From Rhodospirillum centenum SW (lineage in GTDB: Bacteria; Pseudomonadota; Alphaproteobacteria; Azospirillales; Azospirillaceae), in NCBI RefSeq assembly GCF_000016185.1, contig NC_011420.2, positions 2,128,501-2,192,500 on the forward strand: DNA of 64,000 nucleotides. The letters are read 5' to 3'. The notes beneath the pieces are model-generated. The model was not told where the DNA came from. It did no database searches and saw only the letters and a program-made list of their open reading frames with translations. Both the position numbers and the translations under genes were made by a program. Shown in pieces: positions 50,024 through 61,983 of the stretch. Each line of letters begins with the position of its first letter. The stretch's first letter is position 1.

Positions 50024-50182
50024 GGATGGCGTATGGTCGCGGCCCTCTTCCCTACGCTTTCGGTTTCGCATAACTCAGGCGCGCCCGCCCCGGGGTGCTC
50101 CAGGGGTGACGCGAGGTGAATCGTCTTGCCCCCGCCGTGGTCGCGGGTGTACTTTCAATCATCCCCAGCCAGGGGGCGGAAA

Positions 50183-51079
50183 ATGAACGACTCCGTCGAA
50201 TGGGTCGCCGCAGGGAGTGCTTGGCCGGACGCCGGAAGTGACGCGGATGACAGAAATCTGGCATCCAAGTCTGCTGACGCCCGCTACGGCGACTGCGACG
50301 GAAACCCCGTTTCATTGTGCGGTAATGCCGGAAGTGAATCGTTCACCCGGTTAATATTGTCGCAATCCTCGCTGACTGCCTGTTGCTGCCAACAGGCCTG
50401 TCAGCGTTCCACACCCGGCGATGTCGATGTCGCCCGGTTCGCGTCCCTGATTCTTGAGAACGATATCGCGGCGGCCACGGCCTTCATTGAGGACTGGCTG
50501 GCGCGGGGCGTCTCCCTGGACACGATCTACCTGGATCTCCTCGCCCCCACGGCCCGCCATCTCGGGTCCCTGTGGGACGATGACATGTGCGACTTCGCCG
50601 ACGTGACGGTGGGGCTGTGCCGGCTTCAGCAGGTGCTGCGGGGCCTGAGCACCACCTTCGTGGGGGAGGCTGACCGGCCCGACCCGCGGCGGCGCATCCT
50701 GCTGGTGACGGTGCCGGGGGAACAGCACTCCTTCGGCCTGCTGATGGTGGCGGAGTTCTTCCGTCGCGCCGGCTGGGACGTGACCACGGCCATGCCCACC
50801 TCGCGGGATGATCTCTCCACCCTGGTCCGCAGCGAGTGGTTCGCCCTGGTCGGCCTGTCGGCAAGCTGCGACAGCCGCCTGGACACCATGGCCGCGGCCA
50901 TCCGGTCGGTCCGGCGCGCCTCGCGCAACCGCCTGGTCGGCATCCTGGTCGGCGGCCCCGTGTTCGACGGTCACCCCGAGTACGTGACCGCCGTGGGCGC
51001 CGACATCATGGGGAGAAACGGCCAGGAGGCAACCGTTCAGGCACAGAACCTTCTTGCCCTGATGCCTGCGGGCTGCTGA
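50183..51079 (+). CDS. aerR: AerR/PpaA family B12-binding antirepressor
   Basis: A 298-residue regulator. Residues 1-80 are a variable region with a Cys cluster (C67-C69 and C73). Residues 81-160 are the helical SCHIC-type lead (WDDDMCDFADVTVGLCRLQQ), and 170-295 a cobalamin-binding fold with RILLVTVPGEQHSFGLLMVA (His182) and GILVGGPVFDGHPEYV. AerR/PpaA proteins bind cobalamin and modulate PpsR/CrtJ in response to light. GGGGGCGGA precedes the ATG. It is upstream of ppsR, in the same direction, with a terminator between. Confidence 0.9.
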   Translation: MNDSVEWVAAGSAWPDAGSDADDRNLASKSADARYGDCDGNPVSLCGNAGSESFTRLILSQSSLTACCCQQACQRSTPGDVDVARFASLILENDIAAATAFIEDWLARGVSLDTIYLDLLAPTARHLGSLWDDDMCDFADVTVGLCRLQQVLRGLSTTFVGEADRPDPRRRILLVTVPGEQHSFGLLMVAEFFRRAGWDVTTAMPTSRDDLSTLVRSEWFALVGLSASCDSRLDTMAAAIRSVRRASRNRLVGILVGGPVFDGHPEYVTAVGADIMGRNGQEATVQAQNLLALMPAGC

Positions 51080-51105
51080 AACCCGACATTGCCGGTGTGT
51101 GTTGG

Positions 51106-51130
51106 AACGGGCGGGAGACCGCCCGTTTTT
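51106..51130 (+). terminator. Terminator of aerR
   Basis: ACGGGCGG/CCGCCCGT with a GAGA tetraloop followed by five Ts, 28 bases after the aerR stop. ppsR therefore probably has its own promoter. Confidence 0.88.
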
Positions 51131-51167
51131 GTCGTGCGCGCGCCGTCCTTCGCTCCCGGAGGGCGAA

Positions 51168-51201
51168 TGTCAATTTTTGTGTACGTAAGGCTGGCTTGAC
51201 A
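51168..51201 (+). promoter_or_regulatory. Candidate ppsR promoter and weak PpsR-like site
   Basis: TGTCAATTTTTGTGTACG (51168-51185) is one base off TGT-N12-ACA. A TTGACA (51196-51201) could be a -35, though no good -10 is seen 17 bases on. The AT-rich patch stands out against the surrounding GC. Autoregulation is possible but not shown. Confidence 0.35.
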
Positions 51202-51328
51202 AACCGGGTCCGCGATGCCCCAATGAGCATGCGCCAGCCTTAACGCATCGGACCGGGGGGGGTCCCGAGGAACCCGAGAACCTTGGCAGGCGTACGTCAA
51301 GGTATCGAGCTAGGAAGGCGCGCCGCCC

Positions 51329-52735
51329 GTGAGGCATTTCCAGGCGCCGAGTCAATCGCTGGGGAACCTGAACGCCGAGGCGGTCGCCGCCTTGATCGCG
51401 TCGGCCGGTGACATCGCCCTCGTCGTGGACCACCGTGGGCTGATCCTGGACATGGCGTTCGGGAACGACGCCCTGGCCCGCGAATGGGATGACGGCTGGC
51501 TGGGCCGCCAGTGGCAGGACACCGTCACCTCCGACAGCCGGGCCAAGGTCGATGCGCTGCTGCGCGAGGCCGAATCGGGCGCTCCCTCCCGCTGGCGCCA
51601 TGTCAACCACGCCTCCGCCCGCGGGTTGGACGTTCCCATCCAGTACACCGCCGTCAAGGTGATGGACGACGGCAAGGTCGTCGCCATCGGCCGCGACCTG
51701 CGTGCCACCGCGGCACTGCAACAGCGGCTGGTGGAAGCGCAGCAGTCGATGGAGCGGGACTATTCCCGCCTGCGCCAGATGGAGATGCGCTACCGGCTGC
51801 TGTTCCAGACGACGCCGGAGGCGATTCTCATCGTCGATGCCACCAGCTTCAAGGTGACGGAGGCCAATCCCGCGGCCGCCACCCTGCTGGGACACGAGCT
51901 GAACCGCATCGTCGGCCGCCCCCTGCCGGAAGCGTTCCCGGCCGCGGCCGAGCAGTCGATCCAGTCCTTCCTGGCCGGGGTCCGTGCCACCGGGCGCACG
52001 GAATCGACCCAGGTCGCAGCCCCGGCCGGGATGGCCGGCTTCTCCGTCACCGCCTCGCTGTTCCGGCAGGAGGGGGTGTCGCTGTTCCTGGTGCGGATCG
52101 GTGCGGCCGCGACGGAGACTCCGGCCGCGCCGGTCGTGCGACCCCGCTTCGTGCAGGTGGTGGAGAGCCTGCCCGACGGGGTCGTCATCACCGATCCGGA
52201 AGGCCGCATCCTGGAGACGAACGCCGCGTTCCTGGACCTCGCCCAGCTCGTCACCGAGGAGCAGGCGCGGGGCGAATCGCTGGAACGCTGGCTGGGCCGG
52301 CCGGGCGTCGATCTCAGCGTGCTGATCGCCAACCTGCGCCAGCACGGGGCCGTCCGGCTCTATGCCACCACCCTGCGCGGCGAGTACGGCGACACCGCCG
52401 AGATCGAGGTCTCCGCCGTCTCCATCGGCAACGGCGACCGGCCCTGCTTCGGCTTCGCCATCCGCAATGTCGGCCGGCGCCTTGCCGCCGATTCCCGCAA
52501 GCGGGAACTGCCCCGCTCCGTCGAGCAGCTTACCGAACTGGTCGGCCGCGTCCCCCTGAAGGATCTGGTGAGGGAGACGACCGACGTGGTCGAGCGCCTG
52601 TGCATCGAGGCGGCGCTGGAGCTGACCGGCGACAACCGCGCCTCGGCCGCGGAGATCCTGGGGCTCAGCCGGCAGAGCCTGTACGTCAAGCTGCGCCGTT
52701 ACGGCCTGGGCGACATCGAGCCCGAATCGACCTGA
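51329..52735 (+). CDS. ppsR: Photosynthesis gene repressor PpsR/CrtJ
   Basis: A 468-residue repressor. An N-terminal PAS-like domain (about 20-125), a Gln-rich coiled linker (126-155), two further PAS domains (about 155-260 and 275-385), and a Fis-type helix-turn-helix at the end (DNRASAAEILGLSRQSLYVK) are visible. C425 lies just before the helix-turn-helix, matching the redox Cys of Rhodobacter PpsR/CrtJ. The only other Cys is C373; the Cys near 250 of Rhodobacter proteins is absent. It should bind TGT-N12-ACA operators found across this cluster. Start is GTG at 51329. Confidence 0.95.
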   Translation: MRHFQAPSQSLGNLNAEAVAALIASAGDIALVVDHRGLILDMAFGNDALAREWDDGWLGRQWQDTVTSDSRAKVDALLREAESGAPSRWRHVNHASARGLDVPIQYTAVKVMDDGKVVAIGRDLRATAALQQRLVEAQQSMERDYSRLRQMEMRYRLLFQTTPEAILIVDATSFKVTEANPAAATLLGHELNRIVGRPLPEAFPAAAEQSIQSFLAGVRATGRTESTQVAAPAGMAGFSVTASLFRQEGVSLFLVRIGAAATETPAAPVVRPRFVQVVESLPDGVVITDPEGRILETNAAFLDLAQLVTEEQARGESLERWLGRPGVDLSVLIANLRQHGAVRLYATTLRGEYGDTAEIEVSAVSIGNGDRPCFGFAIRNVGRRLAADSRKRELPRSVEQLTELVGRVPLKDLVRETTDVVERLCIEAALELTGDNRASAAEILGLSRQSLYVKLRRYGLGDIEPEST

Positions 52736-52746
52736 GCCGCTTACCC

Positions 52747-52761
52747 CTCCCGTTCCGGGAG
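52747..52761 (+). terminator. Hairpin after ppsR
   Basis: CTCCCG/CGGGAG with a TTC loop, 11 bases after the ppsR stop; only scattered Ts follow. Confidence 0.4.
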
Positions 52762-52859
52762 CGTTCGTTCCTGCCGTCTGTTGACCGGGCCCGACCCGCA
52801 CGTCCGATCCGCATGCCCGCTCCGGGCGTCCGGGCGGGCGTCAAGCCAGCAGGTGAGCG

Positions 52860-55800
52860 ATGCCCGCCCGGACCGCGCCGGAGTCCCCCGATGCCGCCCG
52901 CCCGACCGGCGGCCCCCCCTTCCCCACCGAGGATCCGTCGCTGCTGCAGTTGGCCGAGGCCATGCTGCCCGACTTCCTGCTGCGGCAGCGCTGGTATCCG
53001 GCGAAGGACGCCGGCCAGCCGCGGGTGTCGCTGCTGGCCCAGGTGCCGCTCCCCGGCCTGGAGCATCCGGCCGCCCTGGCCGTCTGGTCCGTCGAGCCGC
53101 CGGAGCGCCGGCCGCTGCGCTGTCTGGTGCCGCTGACCATCCTGCCCGCGGACGGCGTGCCCGACGCAGCGGTGATCGCGCCGCTGCACCCGGCCGGCGG
53201 CGGTCAGGTGCTGGCGGACGCGCTGCTGGCCGACGACACCGTGATCGCCTTTCTGGCGCACCTGCTGCTGGCCCCCGACGCCGAAACCCCGCCCGGCCTG
53301 ACCGCGGGCCGGACGGGGGCGTCGGCCGGCGGACCCACGGCACGACCGGCGATCCGGCGCGGCTCCGTGGAGCAGTCCAACAGTTCCTTCCGGGTCGGTG
53401 ACCAGGGCATCCTGAAACTGTTCCGGACCCTGGAACCCGGCATCCATCCCGAGCTGGAGATCGGCCGTTTCCTGACCGACCGGGCGCGCTTTCCCGCCGT
53501 CCCGGCGCTGGCAGGGTGGCTGAACCTGGCCACCGGCGCCGGCGGGGCGGAAGCCACCCTCGGCGTGCTCCAGGCCTTCGTTCCCAACGCGGGCGACGGC
53601 TGGGGCTGGGTGCTGGACCGATTGGCCGAGGGACGGGAGCAGGAGACGCTGCCCTGGATCGCCGCCCTGGGCCGGCGGGTCGCCGGGCTGCACCGCGCCC
53701 TGGCCCTGGATACGGACCCGGGCACGGACGACGAGGCCTTCCGTCCCGCGCCCGTGGACGGCGAGGACCTGGACGGCTGGGTCGAATCGGCCAAGGCGAT
53801 GGCGCGGCGCGCCCTGGACTCGCTGGACGGGGCGGTCGCCGTCCTGCCCGCCGCCGCCCGGCCGATGGCGGAGGCGCTGCTGGCCCGCCGTTCCGAGCTG
53901 CCGGGGCTGTTGCAGGCGCTGCTGCCCGTCACCGCCGTCGCCCGGACGCGCCACCATGGCGACCTGCATCTGGGGCAGGTGCTGGTGACACCGGACGCGG
54001 CGGACGCCGTGATCGTGGATTTCGAGGGCGAGCCGCTGCGCCCGTTGGCGGAGCGGCGGGCCCGGCACAGCCCGCTGCGCGACGTGGCGGGAATGCTGCG
54101 CTCCTTCTCCTATGCGGCGGCCTCCGCCGGACGGCAGGCCGACCGGGCACGGCAGGACGCCCTGGCGCGCTGGGCCGGAGAGGCGGCCGGAACCTTCCTG
54201 GAAACCTATCTGACGGCGGCCGAGGGCAGCCCCGGCTGCGCCGCCACGCCGGGGGAGACGGTGCGGCTGGTCCGCTTCTTCATGCTGGAGAAGGCGCTGT
54301 ACGAGGTCGCCTACGAGCTGGCGAACCGGCCCGACTGGGTGGAGATCCCGCTGGCCGGTGTGCTCGCCATCCTGGACGACGGGGAGGCCGGCGTGCCCTC
54401 CCCCCGGACCGGGGCCGTCCGGCGGCACCGGATGCCGTTCGGGGCGGAGCTGCGCGAGGGCGGCGGCGTGCGCTTCCGCCTCTGGGCGCCGGCGCAGACG
54501 GCGCTGCGCCTGGAACTGGACGGCGGGATCCTGGACATGGCCCCGGTGGAGGGGGGCTGGCACGAGCTGGTGAGCGAGCGCGCCGGCCCCGGCAGCCGTT
54601 ACCGCTTCCTCCTGCCCGACGGTACGGCCGTGCCCGATCCGGCCTCCCGCCACCAGCCCGAGGACGTCCACGGCCCCAGCGAGGTGATCGATCCGGCCGC
54701 CTACCGCTGGCAGGCCGCGGACTGGCGCGGCCGCCCGTGGGAGGAGGCGGTGCTCTACGAGCTGCACATCGGCGCCTTCACGCCGGAGGGGACCTTCCGC
54801 GCCGCCATCGGAAAGCTGGACCATCTGGCCGCGCTGGGCGTGACGGCGGTGCAGATCATGCCGGTGGCCGACTTCCCCGGCACCCGCAACTGGGGCTACG
54901 ACGGCGTGCTGCCCTACGCCCCGGACGGCAGCTACGGCCGCCCGGAGGATCTGAAGGCCCTGGTGGACGCGGCCCATGCCCGCGGCCTGATGGTCATGCT
55001 GGACGTCGTCTACAACCATTTCGGGCCGGAGGGGAACTATCTGTCCCTCTACGCCCCCGCCTTCTTCACGGAGAAGCACCATACCCCCTGGGGGGCGGCC
55101 GTGAACTACGACGACACGGGCAGCCGCACCGTGCGCGACTTCGTCATTCACAACGCCCTCTACTGGATCGAGGAGTTCGACCTGGACGGGCTGCGGCTGG
55201 ACGCGGTCCACGCCATCATCGACGAGACCGAGCCCCACCTGCTGACGGAGCTGGCGCGGGAGGTGCGCCACCGCTTCCCCGGCCGGCACGTCCACCTGGT
55301 CCTGGAGAACGAGGAGAACGAGGCCGCCCGGCTGGACCGCGCCCGCGACGGGGCCACGGCCCTGTTCACCGCGCAGTGGAACGACGACGTCCACCACGGG
55401 CTGCACGTCGCCGCCACGGGGGAAAGCGCCGGCTACTACGCGGAGTATGCCGGCGATCTGGACAAGCTGGGCCGCGCGCTGGCCGAGGGCTTCGCCTTCC
55501 AGGGCGAGATGATGGCCTACCGCGGCGCCCCCCGCGGCGAGCCGAGCGCCCACCTGCCGCCCACCGCCTTCGTCGCCTTCCTCCAGAACCACGACCAGAT
55601 CGGCAACCGCGCCTTCGGAGACCGCATCACCGCGACCGCCCCGGCGAAGGCGGTGAGGGCCGTCGCCGGGCTCTACCTGCTGGCGCCGCAGATCCCCATG
55701 CTGTTCATGGGGGAGGAATGGGCGACCGGGCGCCCCTTCCCCTTCTTCTGCGATTTCGGCCCCGAGCTGGCGACCGCCGTGCGCGAGGGCCGGCGCAAGG

Positions 55801-58457
55801 AGTTCGCCCGCTTTCCCGAGTTCCGCGACGAGGCCGCCCGCGCCCGCATCCCCGATCCCACGGCGGAGGCGACGTTCCTGTCCGCGAAGCTGGACTGGGA
55901 GGCCCTGGAGCGGGAACCGCACGCCCGCCGGCTGGACTGGTACAGGCGGATGCTGGCCCTGCGCCGGGCGGAGATCGTGCCCCGTCTGACCGGCGTCGGC
56001 GCCGGGGCCGGCCGCTACGAGCGGATCGGGGAGAGCGGGCTGGTGGTGCGCTGGCGCCTGGGCGGGGGGGAGACCCTGGCCGTCGCCGCCAACCTGTCCG
56101 CCGGGCCGGAGGACGGCTTCCCCGCCGCCGCGGGCCGGACCCTGCACCGCGAGGGCGAGGCCGGGGATGCGACCGGCGGCGGCCGCTACGGTCCCTGGGC
56201 CGTGCGCTGGTGGATCGAGGGGGAGCCGGACAGCGGCAGCAGGGAACGGGCGGAGACCGGAGCAGAGACCGGGGCAGAGGCCGGACCGGAGACCCGGACG
56301 GAAGCCGGTGAGCCGGGGGACACGGCGCTGACGCGGCTGGCCGGGCGCTGCGGCATCGAGCCCGGCTTCGACAACGCCCATGGCGAGCGGGTGGAGACAT
56401 CGCCCGCGACCCGCCGCCGCCTGCTGGCCGCCATGGGCATCGACGCCGCGGACGAGGCGGCGGCGGAACGGGCGCTGGACGCCCTGGACCGGGAGGACTG
56501 GCAGGGGCCGCTGCCCCCCGTCGCCGTCTGCCGGCGCGATGCCGGGCCGCCGTCGGTGGCGCTGACCCTGCCGGCCGGAACGGGCACCGTCGCCTGGCGG
56601 GTGGCGCTGGAGGAGGGCGGCGAGCGGGGCGGCAACGCGGACATCGCCGCCCTGGACCTGGAGGCGGTGCGGGAACTGGACGGCCGGCGGCTGGAACGGC
56701 GCCGGCTGCCCCTGCCCGCCGACCTGCCGGACGGCTACCACCGGCTGCAGGTGGCCGGGGCGGAAACGTCCCTGGTGCTGAGCCCCGGCCGCTGCTGGCT
56801 GCCGCCGGAGGTGGCGGCGGGCCGGCGGCTCTGGGGACTGGCGGCGCAGCTCTACACCCTGCGCTCCGATACCGACTGGGGCATCGGCGACTTCGGCGAC
56901 CTGCGCACCCTGGTGGACCTGGCCGCGGCCCGTGGTGCCGCCGCGGTCGGGCTGAACCCGCTGCACGTCGCCTTTCCCGACGATCCCGAACAGGCCAGCC
57001 CCTATTCCCCGGCCAGCCGGCTGCTGCTGAACGTGCTGAACATCGACGTCACGGCCGTGCCGGAATTCGCCGCCTGCCCCGACGCCGTAGCTCTGGTCGC
57101 GTCGGCGGAGATGGCCCGGCGGCTGGCGGACTGCCGGCGGTCGCCGCTGGTGGACTACACGGCCGTGGCGGACCTGAAGATGCAGGTGCTGGCCCTGCTG
57201 TTCGAGACCTGCCGCGACGCCGTGGACCGCACCCGGGCGGACGCCTTCGCCGCCTTCCGGCGGGAGGCCGGGCCGGCACTGGAGACGGCCTGCCTGTTCC
57301 TGGTCCTGCGCCGGCATTTCGCCGGGCGCGGCACGCCCGACTGGCACGGCTGGCCGGACGAATACCGCAGCCCGGCCTCCCCGGCCGTGCTCCGCTTCGC
57401 GGCGGAGCACCGGCACGAACTCGACTTCATGGCTTGGCTGCAATGGGTGGCGGACGGGCAGCTTGCCGCCGCGGCGACGCGGGCGCGGGAGGCCGGCATG
57501 GCGATCGGGCTCTACCGCGATCTGGCGGTGGGGGCGGACCGCTCCGGGGCCGAGACCTGGATCAACCCGCAGGCCGTCGTCTCCGCCGCCCATGTCGGCG
57601 CCCCGCCGGACATCTTCAACCCGGCCGGACAGGACTGGGGCCTGCCGCCCCTGAACCCGCGCGCCCTGCGGCAGGAGGGCTACCGCAGCTTCATCGACCT
57701 GCTGCGGGCGAACATGCGCCATGCCGGCGGGCTGCGCATCGACCATGCCATGGCCTTGCAGCATCTCTACTGGATTCCGGAGGGCGGGTCCCCCGCCGAC
57801 GGCGCCTATGTCGCCTACCCGCTGGAGGACATGCTGGGCATCCTGGCGCTGGAGAGCACCCGCCACCGCTGCCTGGTGGTGGGGGAGGATCTGGGCACGG
57901 TGCCGGAAGGCTTCCGCGAGCGGATGGCGGCGGCGGCCGTGCTGTCCTACCGGGTGCTGTATTTCGAGCAGGAGTCCGGGACCGGCGCCTATGCCGCGCC
58001 GGAGGACTATCCCCCGCTGGCGCTGGCGGTGATCGGCAGCCACGACCTGCCGACCCTGCGTGGCTGGTGGGAGGGCAGCGACATCGCCCTGAAGGAGCGG
58101 CTGGGCCTCTATCCCGGCGCGGGCGAGGCGGAGCGTCAGCGGAGCCGCCGCGAGCGCGACCGGGACTGCCTGCTGGAGGCGCTGAAGCGGGAGGGGCTGG
58201 TGCCGGCGGCGGCCACGGTCGGGCCCCTGCCGATGGAGACCCTGCACGCCGCCGCGCATGCCTTCCTGGCCCGCAGCCACAGCGCCCTGGCCATGGTGCA
58301 GCTCGACGACCTGACGGACGAGGCGGAGCCGGTGAACGTGCCGGGTACGGCGGCGGAGCATCCGAACTGGCGGCGCAAGCTGTCCCTGAGCCTGGAGGCG
58401 CTGTCGCAGAGCCCCCGCTTCCAGACGGTGGCGGAGATCATGGCGGCCGGGCGCTGA
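52860..58457 (+). CDS. Maltokinase-TreZ-MalQ trifunctional fusion protein
   Basis: An 1865-residue protein in one uninterrupted frame. Residues 1-511 are a maltokinase (Mak/Pep2) domain with LPDFLLRQRWYPAKD, VEQSNSSFRV, catalytic H366-G-D368-L-H370 and D387 in VDFEGEP. Residues 525 to about 1120 are malto-oligosyltrehalose trehalohydrolase (GH13): D781 in LRLDAVHAI, E816 in LVLENEENE, D912 in NHDQIGNR. An acidic Gly/Thr/Glu-rich linker (about 1121-1150) leads to 4-alpha-glucanotransferase (GH77, to the end) with D1628 in LRIDHAM, E1676 in VVGEDLGT and D1729 in GSHDLPT. All catalytic residues look intact. AGGTGA precedes ATG 52860. Expected roles are maltose 1-phosphate formation, release of trehalose from maltooligosyl-trehalose, and glucan transfer. 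Confidence 0.93.
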   Translation: MPARTAPESPDAARPTGGPPFPTEDPSLLQLAEAMLPDFLLRQRWYPAKDAGQPRVSLLAQVPLPGLEHPAALAVWSVEPPERRPLRCLVPLTILPADGVPDAAVIAPLHPAGGGQVLADALLADDTVIAFLAHLLLAPDAETPPGLTAGRTGASAGGPTARPAIRRGSVEQSNSSFRVGDQGILKLFRTLEPGIHPELEIGRFLTDRARFPAVPALAGWLNLATGAGGAEATLGVLQAFVPNAGDGWGWVLDRLAEGREQETLPWIAALGRRVAGLHRALALDTDPGTDDEAFRPAPVDGEDLDGWVESAKAMARRALDSLDGAVAVLPAAARPMAEALLARRSELPGLLQALLPVTAVARTRHHGDLHLGQVLVTPDAADAVIVDFEGEPLRPLAERRARHSPLRDVAGMLRSFSYAAASAGRQADRARQDALARWAGEAAGTFLETYLTAAEGSPGCAATPGETVRLVRFFMLEKALYEVAYELANRPDWVEIPLAGVLAILDDGEAGVPSPRTGAVRRHRMPFGAELREGGGVRFRLWAPAQTALRLELDGGILDMAPVEGGWHELVSERAGPGSRYRFLLPDGTAVPDPASRHQPEDVHGPSEVIDPAAYRWQAADWRGRPWEEAVLYELHIGAFTPEGTFRAAIGKLDHLAALGVTAVQIMPVADFPGTRNWGYDGVLPYAPDGSYGRPEDLKALVDAAHARGLMVMLDVVYNHFGPEGNYLSLYAPAFFTEKHHTPWGAAVNYDDTGSRTVRDFVIHNALYWIEEFDLDGLRLDAVHAIIDETEPHLLTELAREVRHRFPGRHVHLVLENEENEAARLDRARDGATALFTAQWNDDVHHGLHVAATGESAGYYAEYAGDLDKLGRALAEGFAFQGEMMAYRGAPRGEPSAHLPPTAFVAFLQNHDQIGNRAFGDRITATAPAKAVRAVAGLYLLAPQIPMLFMGEEWATGRPFPFFCDFGPELATAVREGRRKEFARFPEFRDEAARARIPDPTAEATFLSAKLDWEALEREPHARRLDWYRRMLALRRAEIVPRLTGVGAGAGRYERIGESGLVVRWRLGGGETLAVAANLSAGPEDGFPAAAGRTLHREGEAGDATGGGRYGPWAVRWWIEGEPDSGSRERAETGAETGAEAGPETRTEAGEPGDTALTRLAGRCGIEPGFDNAHGERVETSPATRRRLLAAMGIDAADEAAAERALDALDREDWQGPLPPVAVCRRDAGPPSVALTLPAGTGTVAWRVALEEGGERGGNADIAALDLEAVRELDGRRLERRRLPLPADLPDGYHRLQVAGAETSLVLSPGRCWLPPEVAAGRRLWGLAAQLYTLRSDTDWGIGDFGDLRTLVDLAAARGAAAVGLNPLHVAFPDDPEQASPYSPASRLLLNVLNIDVTAVPEFAACPDAVALVASAEMARRLADCRRSPLVDYTAVADLKMQVLALLFETCRDAVDRTRADAFAAFRREAGPALETACLFLVLRRHFAGRGTPDWHGWPDEYRSPASPAVLRFAAEHRHELDFMAWLQWVADGQLAAAATRAREAGMAIGLYRDLAVGADRSGAETWINPQAVVSAAHVGAPPDIFNPAGQDWGLPPLNPRALRQEGYRSFIDLLRANMRHAGGLRIDHAMALQHLYWIPEGGSPADGAYVAYPLEDMLGILALESTRHRCLVVGEDLGTVPEGFRERMAAAAVLSYRVLYFEQESGTGAYAAPEDYPPLALAVIGSHDLPTLRGWWEGSDIALKERLGLYPGAGEAERQRSRRERDRDCLLEALKREGLVPAAATVGPLPMETLHAAAHAFLARSHSALAMVQLDDLTDEAEPVNVPGTAAEHPNWRRKLSLSLEALSQSPRFQTVAEIMAAGR

Positions 58458-58469
58458 ACGGCCGGTCCT

Positions 58470-58508
58470 GCCGGTGCCCCCGGGGCTTCCGCCCCCGGGG
58501 ACACCGGC
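58470..58508. terminator. Bidirectional hairpin between the fusion gene and the DUF1428-type gene
   Basis: A long GC-rich inverted repeat (CCGGTG with CACCGG and CCCCGGGG with CCCCGGGG) between convergent genes, without T tracts. Confidence 0.5.
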
Positions 58509-58525
58509 TCCGGACCCGGCAGCCC

Positions 58526-58936
58526 TCAGACCTGGATGAACGTCCGGAAGCCGCCATGGATCATGCGTCTGCCGTCGAACGGCATGTCGTCCACGCTGCC
58601 CTTCAGGCGCGGGTCCTGCATCACCTTGGCATTGATGGCGTCCCGCTCTTCCCGGGAGGCATAGACGATCCAGGAGAAGACGACGACCTCGTCATCCGTC
58701 GCCTGCACGGCGCGGGGGAAGGAGGTCAGGGTGCCATAGGGCACGTCGTCGCCGATGCACTCGGCATAGGCGAGGGCACCATGCTCCTTCCAGACCTCCG
58801 CCGCGGTGCGGGCCAACGCCGTGTAGGCGTCCAGCTTCGCCCTGGGCACCGCCAGCACGAAACCGTCCACGTAGGTGCCCCCCGGCGACGTTCCGCCGGC
58901 GGGTGTGTCTCCGGACCCGTCGTCCATCCCAGCCAT
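58526..58936 (-). CDS. DUF1428 (YbaA-like) family protein
   Basis: A 136-residue protein. After a 22-residue Gly/Ser start comes the DUF1428 pattern: YVDGFVLAVPRAKLDAYTAL, WKEHGALAYAECIGDD, VVVFSWIVYASREERDAINA and MPFDGRRMIHGGFRTFIQV. The fold is a dimeric alpha/beta barrel of unknown function. GGGAGGA five bases before ATG 58936 supports the start. It stands alone, convergent with the glucan fusion gene. No catalytic role can be claimed. Confidence 0.88.
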   Translation of the reverse strand: MAGMDDGSGDTPAGGTSPGGTYVDGFVLAVPRAKLDAYTALARTAAEVWKEHGALAYAECIGDDVPYGTLTSFPRAVQATDDEVVVFSWIVYASREERDAINAKVMQDPRLKGSVDDMPFDGRRMIHGGFRTFIQV

Positions 58937-59165
58937 CTGCGTCCTCCCTGTCTGCGTAAGCGCCAGCGACCCGGCCGGCGCCTTGTGAAACGGCGGGACC
59001 TCCCGCCGGCGTTCCACCCTCCCCCTATTCCCCCCGGGGTTCCCGGCGGCCCCGCGGCGGGCGCAAGGCCGGAACGCTGTCCTGCGTTGACAAAACGCAA
59101 CGTGCTCCGGGCGGCGATCGGTTAGGGTGTGCGCGCCCCTGAGAGGGCAAGCGGAGAAACCACCG

Positions 59166-59666
59166 ATGACCTGCCGCCGCGACATGGAGCCCTGTGGCTG
59201 CTCCACACCGGAAGGGCACGGGCGCTGCCTGACCGACGCCGCCCGGGCGGCGCTGCTGGCGGCGCTGGACATGGAGTACCGGGCCGCCGCCGTCTACGAG
59301 GCCGTGCTGCGCCGCTTCGGGCCGATGCCGCCCTTCACCCATGTGCTGCGCTCCGAACAGCGCCACGCCGCCGTCCTCGGCGCCCTGCTGGAAGGGCACG
59401 GGGTGGCCGCCCCGCCCTCGTCCTACGACCCGGCCCAGGTGTCGCTGCCGGCCAGCCTGTGGGAGGCCTGCGAGGCCGCCGCCGCCGGCAAGGAGGCCAG
59501 CGCCGAGCGCTACGACCGCGACCTGCTGCCCGCCGCCGAGGGGCACGAGGAGGTGCGGACCGTGTTCCTGCGCCTGCGCGATGCCGCCCTGCACTGCCAG
59601 CTTCCGGCCTTCCGCCACTGGATCGAACTGCACCGGCGCGAGGAACCCACCGGCGACGCCGCCTGA
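59166..59666 (+). CDS. Ferritin-like domain protein
   Basis: A 166-residue helical protein. LDMEYRAAAVYEAVLRRFG and VLRSEQRHAAVLGALLEGHG resemble the E...ExxH pattern of ferritin-like DUF2202 proteins, with further helices containing ERYDRDLLPAAEGHEEVR. A Cys-rich N-terminus (C3, C9, C11, C19) precedes the domain. GGAGA lies upstream of ATG 59166. Diiron binding is likely from the motif pattern but only one clear ExxH is present. It stands alone before the helicase gene. Confidence 0.7.
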   Translation: MTCRRDMEPCGCSTPEGHGRCLTDAARAALLAALDMEYRAAAVYEAVLRRFGPMPPFTHVLRSEQRHAAVLGALLEGHGVAAPPSSYDPAQVSLPASLWEACEAAAAGKEASAERYDRDLLPAAEGHEEVRTVFLRLRDAALHCQLPAFRHWIELHRREEPTGDAA

Positions 59667-59760
59667 GCGCAACGCAGTCTCCCGCCGCGCCCCATTGATT
59701 TCCCGCCTCGGCCGCCGCAGATAGCGGCCGACCGCATCGTGGCGGCAGGGAGGACACGAC

Positions 59761-61983
59761 ATGGCCGACGGGGAAACACCGCAGACGGCACCCGCCGGCG
59801 ACGATCCGGACCTGGTCTACGCCATCGCCCGCATCCATCCCGAGGTCGTGCCCCTGCACCGGCTGGGGCTGGACCGGATGGAGCAGGCGGGCATGCTGGG
59901 CATGGTGCCGCTGGGGCTGCCGCTGCCCAAGGGCCGCCGCGATCTGGTGGTGGCGGAGGAGCGGCGCGAGGCCGTGCTGCTGGAGATCGCCGGCAAGATC
60001 GCCCGCGCGCAGCGCCGGGCCGAGGTGCTGGAGCGCGGCCGCCGCGCGCTGGAAGGCACCGATGCCGCCCTGGCCGTGGCCGAGGCGCGCGACCGCATCC
60101 GGATCCGCCTTGCCGACGCCGTCCACTGGACCGGCATGCCCGGCCCGATCCAGCTGGAGGTGTCCCGCGCCGTGGACGTGGACGAGCTGTCCGGGCTGGA
60201 CGAGGCGGAGCTGCGCAGCCGCCTGCCGGCCGATCCCGAGCTGCGCCAGCGCCTGGACCGGGCCATGGCCGACGTGGCCCAGCGCCTCTGGGCCCTGCAG
60301 GAACTGGCGGGGGAGCCGGAGGACAGCTGGACCTTCGAGCATCTGGCGCAGCGCCTCTACAGGGTCTGCCGCACCAACCACCAGCCCAACGACATCCTGC
60401 GCCGCTGGACCGAGATCGAGGAGACCTGGCGGCACGAGCGCGCCGTGGCCCGCGGCCGCGACTACGTCAACACCGAGTTCGACTTCGCCCGCTTCGAGCG
60501 GCTGTTCCCCCTGGCCCGTGCCCTGGGACGCAGGCTGGTGCTGGTGATCGGCCCGACCAACTCGGGCAAGACCCACCGCGCCATGCAGGCGCTGCGGCAG
60601 GCACCGACGGGGGTCTATCTGGCGCCGCTGCGCCTGCTGGCGCTGGAGGTGATGGACCGGCTGAACCGCGAGGGCACGCCCACCACGCTGCTGACCGGGG
60701 AGGAGGAGATCCGCGTGCCGGACGCACGCCACCTCTCCTCCACCATCGAGATGCTGGACCCGGAGGCGACGGTGGACGTCGCCGTGATCGACGAGGTCCA
60801 GATGCTGGCCGATCGCGACCGCGGCTGGGCCTGGACGGCGGCGCTGATGGGGGTGCCGGCGAAGACCGTCTACCTGCTGGGTGCGCCGGAGGTGCGGCCC
60901 CTGGTCGAGCGGGCCGCGGCCCATCTGGGCGAGCCGCTGGAGGTGGTCGAGCTGGAGCGCAAGCAGCCGCTGCACATGATCGAGGAGCGGCTGGAATGGT
61001 CCGACGTGGGCCGCGGCGACGCCCTGATCGCCTTCTCCCGCCGCGAAGTGCATGCGGTGCGTGACACGGTGCAGGCGCGCGGGCTGACGGCGGCGGTGAT
61101 CTACGGGGCACTGGCCCCGGACGTGCGCCGGCGCGAGGCGGAGCGGTTCAACACGGGCGAGGCCGACGTGGTGATCGCCACCGATGCCATCGGCATGGGC
61201 CTGAACCTGCCGGTGCGGCGGGTCCTGTTCACCACGCTGGAGAAGTTCGACGGGGTGGAGATGCGGTCGCTGCACCCGGCGGAGGTGAAGCAGATCGCCG
61301 GCCGTGCCGGCCGCTTCGGGCATTTCGAGGCGGGCGAGTTCGGCGTCGTCGGGCGCGGCACGCCGCAGGCCCTGCGCATGATCGTCACCCGTCCGGACAC
61401 CAGCTTCGGGCCGAAGACGGCGCTGACCGTGCGGCCCACCCGCGCCATGGTGGCCCGGCTGGCCGGCCGCGTCGGCAGCCACAGCCTGTCGCTGCTGATC
61501 GACTGCTTCGCCGCGGCGCGCACGGCGGGCTCCCCCTTCCGGGTCGCCGACCTGGAGCCGCTGCGCAAGCTGGCCGCCGTGCTGGACGAGAAGGAGATCG
61601 GCTTCGAGGACAAGCTGAGCCTGCTGTTCGTTCCGGCCGACCTGGACAAGGACGTGGACGCCCGCTTCTTCCACCGCATCTGCCGGGCGGTGGAGACGGG
61701 CGAGGCGGTGCCCGTCGGGCTGGTCGTGCCGGCCCGCGTCGGCATGCTGGACGACATGTCGCTGGAGGAGCTGTCGCGCACCTGCGACCTCTACTACTGG
61801 GCTTCGCGCAAGTTCCCCAGGCAGTTCCCCGACCGCACCGTGGTGCAGGAGCGCCGGGCCGAGGTCAGCCGGCGGCTGTCGGAGATCCTGGCCGCCGCGG
61901 CGCGCACCCGCGGCCGGACGCCGAAACCGAAGCAGGGCTTCCGCGGCGCCCCGCGCAAGCGCTACGGGCCGCGGCGGGGATAG
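59761..61983 (+). CDS. Suv3-type ATP-dependent RNA helicase
   Basis: A 740-residue superfamily 2 helicase. Walker A reads GPTNSGKT (264-271), the signature of mitochondrial Suv3. The DExH-type box is DEVQ (D344), and motif VI is QIAGRAGRFG from residue 511. The C-terminal part has LLIDCFAAARTAGSPFRVADLEPL and the Suv3 C-terminal helices, ending in a basic Arg/Lys/Gly tail. Residues 1-250 are a helical N-terminal domain. Suv3 unwinds RNA for degradation in mitochondria; in bacteria a role in RNA turnover is inferred. ATG has GGGAGGACACGAC upstream. Confidence 0.88.
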   Translation: MADGETPQTAPAGDDPDLVYAIARIHPEVVPLHRLGLDRMEQAGMLGMVPLGLPLPKGRRDLVVAEERREAVLLEIAGKIARAQRRAEVLERGRRALEGTDAALAVAEARDRIRIRLADAVHWTGMPGPIQLEVSRAVDVDELSGLDEAELRSRLPADPELRQRLDRAMADVAQRLWALQELAGEPEDSWTFEHLAQRLYRVCRTNHQPNDILRRWTEIEETWRHERAVARGRDYVNTEFDFARFERLFPLARALGRRLVLVIGPTNSGKTHRAMQALRQAPTGVYLAPLRLLALEVMDRLNREGTPTTLLTGEEEIRVPDARHLSSTIEMLDPEATVDVAVIDEVQMLADRDRGWAWTAALMGVPAKTVYLLGAPEVRPLVERAAAHLGEPLEVVELERKQPLHMIEERLEWSDVGRGDALIAFSRREVHAVRDTVQARGLTAAVIYGALAPDVRRREAERFNTGEADVVIATDAIGMGLNLPVRRVLFTTLEKFDGVEMRSLHPAEVKQIAGRAGRFGHFEAGEFGVVGRGTPQALRMIVTRPDTSFGPKTALTVRPTRAMVARLAGRVGSHSLSLLIDCFAAARTAGSPFRVADLEPLRKLAAVLDEKEIGFEDKLSLLFVPADLDKDVDARFFHRICRAVETGEAVPVGLVVPARVGMLDDMSLEELSRTCDLYYWASRKFPRQFPDRTVVQERRAEVSRRLSEILAAAARTRGRTPKPKQGFRGAPRKRYGPRRG

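Follow-up and report, generated by a model that had tools for sequence, protein, structure and literature searches.

A system close to the one considered here has been described in P. aeruginosa, where MalQ and the TreS/Pep2 kinase together convert maltohexaose and ATP into maltose 1-phosphate (M1P), bypassing TreY, TreZ and TreS, as given in excerpts of the original study (PMC8084333) and of a review (PMC11046441). According to the same excerpts, deletion of treS/pep2 abolished M1P, and deletion of malQ lowered it slightly, to 0.22% against 0.30%, a drop that carries no significance mark (PMC8084333), so the MalQ bypass is not necessarily the principal one. For the TreS:Pep2 complex, the excerpted text on its structure describes channelling as apparently ruled out (PMC6509496). 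The bypass through MalQ and a maltokinase (Mak) has already been published with separate enzymes; for a fusion of Mak, TreZ and MalQ we found no description in the literature searched, part of which consisted of excerpts, and an earlier survey (Chandra and others, 2011), to which PMC9041414 refers, may mention one.

What is encoded at the present locus? The window, the whole stretch of 64,000 nucleotides of Rhodospirillum centenum SW that was analysed, contains a single open reading frame (52860..58457, +) that begins with ATG, has zero in-frame stops over 1865 codons and, by its domain profiles, encodes a Mak-TreZ-MalQ protein of 1865 aa. Its codon-position GC of 0.78/0.53/0.94 passes the coding filter, which a 1891-aa open reading frame opposite it on the other strand fails. 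A likely ribosome-binding site, AGGTGAG, lies ahead of the ATG (52851..52857, +), and a scan of 52600-59800 for promoter and terminator signals found zero, with 0.2 and 1.3 expected. A sequencing error or frameshift as the source of the fusion was rejected, the same frame being present in 40 of 82 genomes of the family; such an error is unlikely because 39 other family genomes share the domain order in one frame, and because a public record annotates one such gene, that of A. ramasamyi, as a single CDS, named treZ and followed by treY. The fusion is confirmed as real, and the first-pass annotation's claim of one frame carrying three complete-looking enzymes with their catalytic residues is borne out by the open reading frame, by profiles over their cut-offs and by the conserved residues described below.

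The N-terminal domain (aa 26-508; 52935..54383, +) was delimited by profile, alignment, model and structure match. The putative maltokinase profile TIGR02457 covers aa 26-505 with 381 bits against a cut-off of 375.05, a narrow pass, and Mak_N_cap matches the N-terminal cap with 22.6 bits (cut-off 22), none of its stretches passing E 0.001 individually. The maltokinase of M. vanbaalenii has P-loop, HGD, DFE and DVA motifs and maltose-site residues Lys413, Tyr416 and Tyr420, as given in an excerpt of its description (PMC4306142). All of these are matched in the fused Mak, which possesses the P-loop EQSN (171-174), Lys186, HGD (366-368), Gln373, DFE (387-389) and DVA (408-410), together with putative maltose-site residues Lys478, Tyr481 and Tyr485 that correspond to the mycobacterial Lys/Tyr/Tyr when counted on the alignment. 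Both the maltose-site residues and the HGD, DFE and DVA letters are found in 31/31 triple-fusion rows and in 6/6 rows of proteins that join Mak to MalQ directly; an aligned glucosamine kinase has, as read from the alignment, Gln and Arg at the positions of the Lys and the first Tyr. A dead kinase domain is ruled out by the conserved residues. The model of aa 1-517, made with 25 aligned sequences (pLDDT 88.3, pTM 0.89), has the maltokinase fold with its N-terminal cap when compared with the mycobacterial maltokinase 4u94, which is the top solved match by E-value (3.7e-27, TM 0.81 by target); a glucosamine kinase gives E 1.5e-20, with TM-scores that overlap those of 4u94. Mycobacterial maltokinases are also the solved structures closest in sequence to the N-terminal part, and the NCBIfam GlcN kinase profile reaches 111.7 bits, its cut-off being 550. 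Sequence and alignment support the view that the residues required of a maltokinase are present in this domain, and ATP-dependent phosphorylation of maltose at C1 is predicted.

A linker placed by the domain limits (aa 509-526; 54384..54437, +), of which aa 511-517 are of low confidence in the Mak model, leads to the TreZ domain (aa 527-1118, including a C-terminal DUF3459; 54438..56213, +), assigned by profiles and alignment. TIGR02402 matches aa 537-1082 with 724 bits (cut-off 538.8), the solved structures closest in sequence are the putative alpha amylase 3m07 and the TreZ proteins 2bhu and 1eha, and the TreS profile TIGR02456 reaches 45.1 bits on the fused protein, within the TreZ part, against a cut-off of 678.35. 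Arg779/Asp781, Glu816 and His911/Asp912, whose catalytic roles we take from TreZ structures, are present, and the GH13 catalytic residues are found in 31/31 aligned triple-fusion rows. A second, low-complexity linker (aa 1119-1155; 56214..56324, +), recognized from the sequence and the domain queries, precedes MalQ; the gap between the domain queries is 34 residues here, 2-6 in Azospirillum and Belnapia, and 14-23 in genomes G054, G066 and G067. The MalQ domain (aa 1156-1863; 56325..58448, +), again placed by profiles and alignment, consists of a MalQ_N beta sandwich, matched by the Pfam profile, and a GH77 catalytic part (403.8 bits, cut-off 25) with RIDH, GEDLG and SHD motifs, presumably catalytic. 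TIGR00217 matches aa 1285-1851 with 475.5 bits (cut-off 205.65), 4-alpha-glucanotransferase 4s3p is the solved structure closest in sequence, and the catalytic residues are retained in 11/11 triple rows and 6/6 Mak-MalQ rows. Among triple fusions Mak is the least conserved domain (43-59% identity) and TreZ the best conserved (63-75%). Channelling between the domains, which the first-pass annotation had offered as its own surmise, is not supported: it is apparently ruled out in the TreS:Pep2 precedent, as far as the excerpt of that paper goes (PMC6509496), and a two-domain AlphaFold model of aa 1-1125 (7 sequences) has pLDDT 46.8 and pTM 0.34, too low for interdomain contacts to be read from it.

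In the 40 family genomes that carry the triple fusion, this one included, its frame is 1783-2048 aa long; they belong to four genera, or five for fused-type Mak when Mak-MalQ proteins are counted. Two more genomes, which stand outside these 40, have the frame broken inside TreZ (G045) or Mak and TreZ-MalQ on separate contigs, with both frames reaching a contig end (G020). In one of the 40, at G032:C2:1157034-1162301, the MalQ match of the fusion ends early, at residue 1776, and the search for TreY gave no match in G032; this is possibly a decaying copy. In a named genome collection holding at least 591 relatives, the full fusion is present in 6 of the 80 loci kept, those of Belnapia moabensis and five Azospirillum; each of these six genomes also encodes another Mak, whose frame of 1082-1190 aa is the size of TreS-Mak. 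A class sample of 385 genomes gave 35 matches to a Mak-TreZ query at E 1e-150, and Mak was covered only by the match of this genome, the other 34 lying without this fusion in frames of at most 1328 aa. Among 398 sampled genomes of the phylum, 51 have Mak at E 1e-50; 32 of the 50 others were inspected and contained no Mak-TreZ or Mak-MalQ, their Mak matches being 28 TreS-Mak and 4 stand-alone Mak. Of 464 matching plasmid records, 12 match 80% or more of the query at a single place. The triple fusion is common in one family and, among the matches inspected outside it, is seen in Belnapia only. The order was first flagged as unusual, which is correct outside the family and incorrect within it. 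Many database proteins with the same order and a known function had been named as grounds for refutation; the order does occur in many proteins, and to our knowledge none of that order has a known function.

Other arrangements of these genes are found in relatives. Separate TreZ-MalQ or TreZ-MalQ-TreY gene runs occur in many of them, and among the matches listed L016, L017 and L022 have close relatives of the fused TreZ and MalQ as separate genes with no Mak joined. GlgX and TreZ are fused, in a frame some 1300 aa long, in L154, L156, L157 and L164 (three class genomes of one family), and MalQ and TreY share one in L165 and L039. In 6 of the 82 family genomes (G041 and G077-G081) Mak is joined to MalQ without TreZ, and TreY adjoins; in G041, G077, G079 and G081 the TreZ encoded elsewhere in the genome belongs to another lineage in the TreZ tree.

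Phylogenetic trees were built after domain rows shorter than 85% of the reference had been excluded. In the Mak tree, made by a quick method with long branches flagged and holding 75 of 106 rows (31 of 62 TreS-Mak rows, every second one having been dropped), the fused Mak domains form one clade apart from TreS-Mak (SH-aLRT 99); the fused clade also includes one divergent stand-alone Mak, that of G001 (L249). This G001 protein is without two of the three maltose-site residues, and the same genome has a TreS-Mak. In the tree of all 42 MalQ rows, fused MalQ falls in a clade of 22 that includes three free-standing MalQ (100/100), and in a TreZ tree of 45 of 142 rows, hand-chosen, Azospirillum TreZ and window-type TreZ make up two adjacent groups, the second of which also contains free-standing TreZ. 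The six Mak-MalQ proteins lie at two places inside the fused clade in both the Mak and the MalQ tree. The simplest reading of these trees is that TreZ was lost twice to give Mak-MalQ; insertion of TreZ into a Mak-MalQ protein would be the alternative order. The free-standing TreZ and MalQ nested among fused ones point to fission or gene exchange.

Are the partners that such a protein would need encoded in the same organism? The genome, a single contig of 4,355,543 bases with the window inside, encodes TreY at G000:C1:2339752-2342592 (967 bits, cut-off 498.65), about 153 kb from the fused gene, and a GlgE, also over its cut-off, outside the window. The search for treY and glgE that the first-pass annotation had recommended was thereby successful for both, and its statement that treY, treS, glgE and glgB are missing from the window agrees with a Pfam search of 42674-63967 and with the copies found in the genome, all of which lie outside; here treY and glgE were sought by genome-wide profiles, and the treS and glgB copies came from matches to the TreZ part. 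Elsewhere in the genome there are TreS-Mak, which is a second maltokinase, two GlgB, two GlgX, GlgA and GlgP. The MalQ part has no other genome match at E 0.001, and there is no other full TreZ in the genome, the TreZ part having partial matches in six proteins (two GlgB, two GlgX, TreS-Mak and one other GH13-type protein). Because no other MalQ was matched and the TreZ-part matches elsewhere are partial, the fusion is apparently this genome's sole source of MalQ and TreZ.

The fused gene adjoins neither treY nor glgE in this genome. Upstream are a bacteriochlorophyll cluster and, 124 bp away, a PAS-PAS-Fis-type HTH regulator (51329..52735, +), a neighbour and not part of the enzyme, which we take to be PpsR-like. 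B12-binding and PAS-PAS-HTH regulators together occupy 50126-52735 directly upstream, presumably an AerR/PpsR-like pair. The motif TGTN12ACA, which we assume to be the PpsR-type box, has no copy within the 124 bp preceding the fused gene and 9 copies in the whole window against 3.2 expected. Shared light or oxygen control of the fused gene and the upstream regulators is possible. Downstream are a small open reading frame (DUF1428 or no assignment) and a SUV3-like helicase.

Within the family, every one of the 48 genomes that have a Mak of the fused type (40 with the triple protein, 6 with Mak-MalQ, plus G045 and G020) encodes GlgE, as do 9/34 others; Fisher's test gives 7e-14, which is not a true probability since the genomes are related. 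By genus, GlgE is present in 2/2 genomes with the fusion vs 0/9 with none in g12, and in 39/39 vs 3/6 in g3; 39 of the 48 genomes belong to one genus, so the link with GlgE is confounded by descent. TreY is found in 47/48 fusion genomes and 9/34 others, and lies less than 6 kb from Mak in 41/48. In G069 and G076 a stand-alone TreZ, 69-70% identical to the window TreZ, adjoins TreY, and neither Mak at E 1e-50 nor GlgE at E 1e-20 was found there. The GlgE frame at L098:10644-15326 (-; about 550.6-555.3 kb of its own genome) has an extra N-terminal part that by eye looks amylase-like; same-family GlgE frames, too, are mostly longer than 1100 aa. In two class genomes (L247, L248) a stand-alone Mak adjoins GlgE and GlgX, and a second Mak has the frame size of TreS-Mak.

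We infer that the fused protein is a trifunctional alpha-glucan/trehalose enzyme, in which MalQ would supply maltose that Mak converts to M1P for GlgE, and TreZ would work with TreY; we give this reading a probability of roughly 0.6. The C-terminal MalQ would disproportionate short linear maltodextrins into maltose, glucose and longer chains, and the N-terminal kinase would use ATP to trap the maltose as M1P, pulling the reversible MalQ reaction. GlgE, encoded elsewhere, would take M1P as donor and extend a glucan, with trehalose bypassed. The middle TreZ would hydrolyse TreY-made maltooligosyltrehalose to release trehalose, and the shortened chains could be rebuilt by MalQ. The step from MalQ through maltose and Mak to M1P, as first proposed for this protein, is published for the separate P. 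aeruginosa enzymes, in the excerpted text at least (PMC8084333). The proposed link between the TreYZ and GlgE routes is possible, since treY and glgE are present elsewhere in the genome, but it would not be the sole link to GlgE, TreS-Mak being a second maltokinase. TreS-Mak would be tied to trehalose as its maltose source and Mak-TreZ-MalQ to maltodextrin. A tentative extension is that each of the two maltokinases is joined to its own maltose maker, TreS working from trehalose and MalQ from maltodextrin, so that one protein might decide whether glycogen-derived chains go to trehalose, or to GlgE-made glucan without trehalose. Fixed stoichiometry and pull are the more likely benefit of the join, rather than tunnelling.

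Several points argue against a coupled enzyme: nine genomes have GlgE without the fusion, the gene adjoins neither treY nor glgE here, close TreZ and MalQ relatives stand apart from any Mak, the Mak domain is the least conserved and passes its profile narrowly, the fused Mak clade of the quick tree takes in a Mak lacking maltose-site residues, malQ deletion in P. aeruginosa had only a slight effect, and the texts read report no activity for a fused copy. Could the three genes simply have been operon neighbours that lost their stops, so that the enzymes act independently and the join only fixes equal amounts? The separate TreZ-MalQ(-TreY) gene runs of many relatives, the other joins of the same genes (GlgX-TreZ, and MalQ-TreY in L039 and L165) and the TreS:Pep2 structure, which by the excerpted text shows no tunnel (PMC6509496), are consistent with this; we consider it unlikely all the same, as the triple protein has been kept in four genera and Mak and MalQ are still joined where TreZ is gone. 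That same disappearance bears on the idea that TreZ is the centre of the protein, MalQ rebuilding the stubs left by TreY and TreZ and Mak only clearing maltose that slows the process, with trehalose rather than M1P as the main output. TreZ is the best conserved domain, TreY is close to Mak in most fusion genomes (<6 kb in 41/48), and G069 and G076, two genomes in which neither Mak nor GlgE was found, keep a stand-alone TreZ beside TreY, yet TreZ is the part absent from the six Mak-MalQ proteins and the kinase is what they keep, which makes this idea improbable. That the kinase domain might use another sugar, for example glucose freed by MalQ, comes to mind through the glucosamine kinase of the same fold family; with the GlcN kinase profile far under its cut-off, the maltokinase profile passed and the maltose-site Lys/Tyr/Tyr all retained, we regard it as very improbable indeed.

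If the coupled enzyme is the correct reading, a MalQ bypass to M1P would be built into the metabolism of many family members, including Azospirillum, known from studies of crop roots, and GlgE-glucan would be predicted to form without TreS. The label treZ can hide two further enzymes, and pathway surveys by single gene names would miss the fused maltokinase and MalQ. Among known arrangements, TreS-Mak (TreS/Pep2) resembles the window protein in joining a maltokinase of the same family to a maltose-yielding enzyme, with M1P passing to GlgE. However, its Mak is C-terminal, behind TreS, whereas in the window protein Mak is N-terminal, ahead of TreZ and MalQ, and the cap subdomain forms the free terminus, no TreS domain precedes it, the kinase is in a separate clade, and the genome has both proteins. 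The MalQ-TreY type (NF011077, PRK14507) is alike in that MalQ is fused to a TreY/TreZ-route enzyme; in its layout TreY stands behind MalQ and there is no kinase, and the best stretch of NF011077 on the window protein is the first 719 of 1693 positions, far under the cut-off. The first part of the Mak-GlgB type (NF011293, PRK14705) matches the window Mak region at aa 33-511, but the whole model scores 247.8 of 2376 bits, far under its cut-off, and its GH13 part is GlgB rather than TreZ, with no MalQ. The P. aeruginosa bypass, as known from the excerpts, has the same pair of MalQ and maltokinase, in two proteins there and in one polypeptide here.
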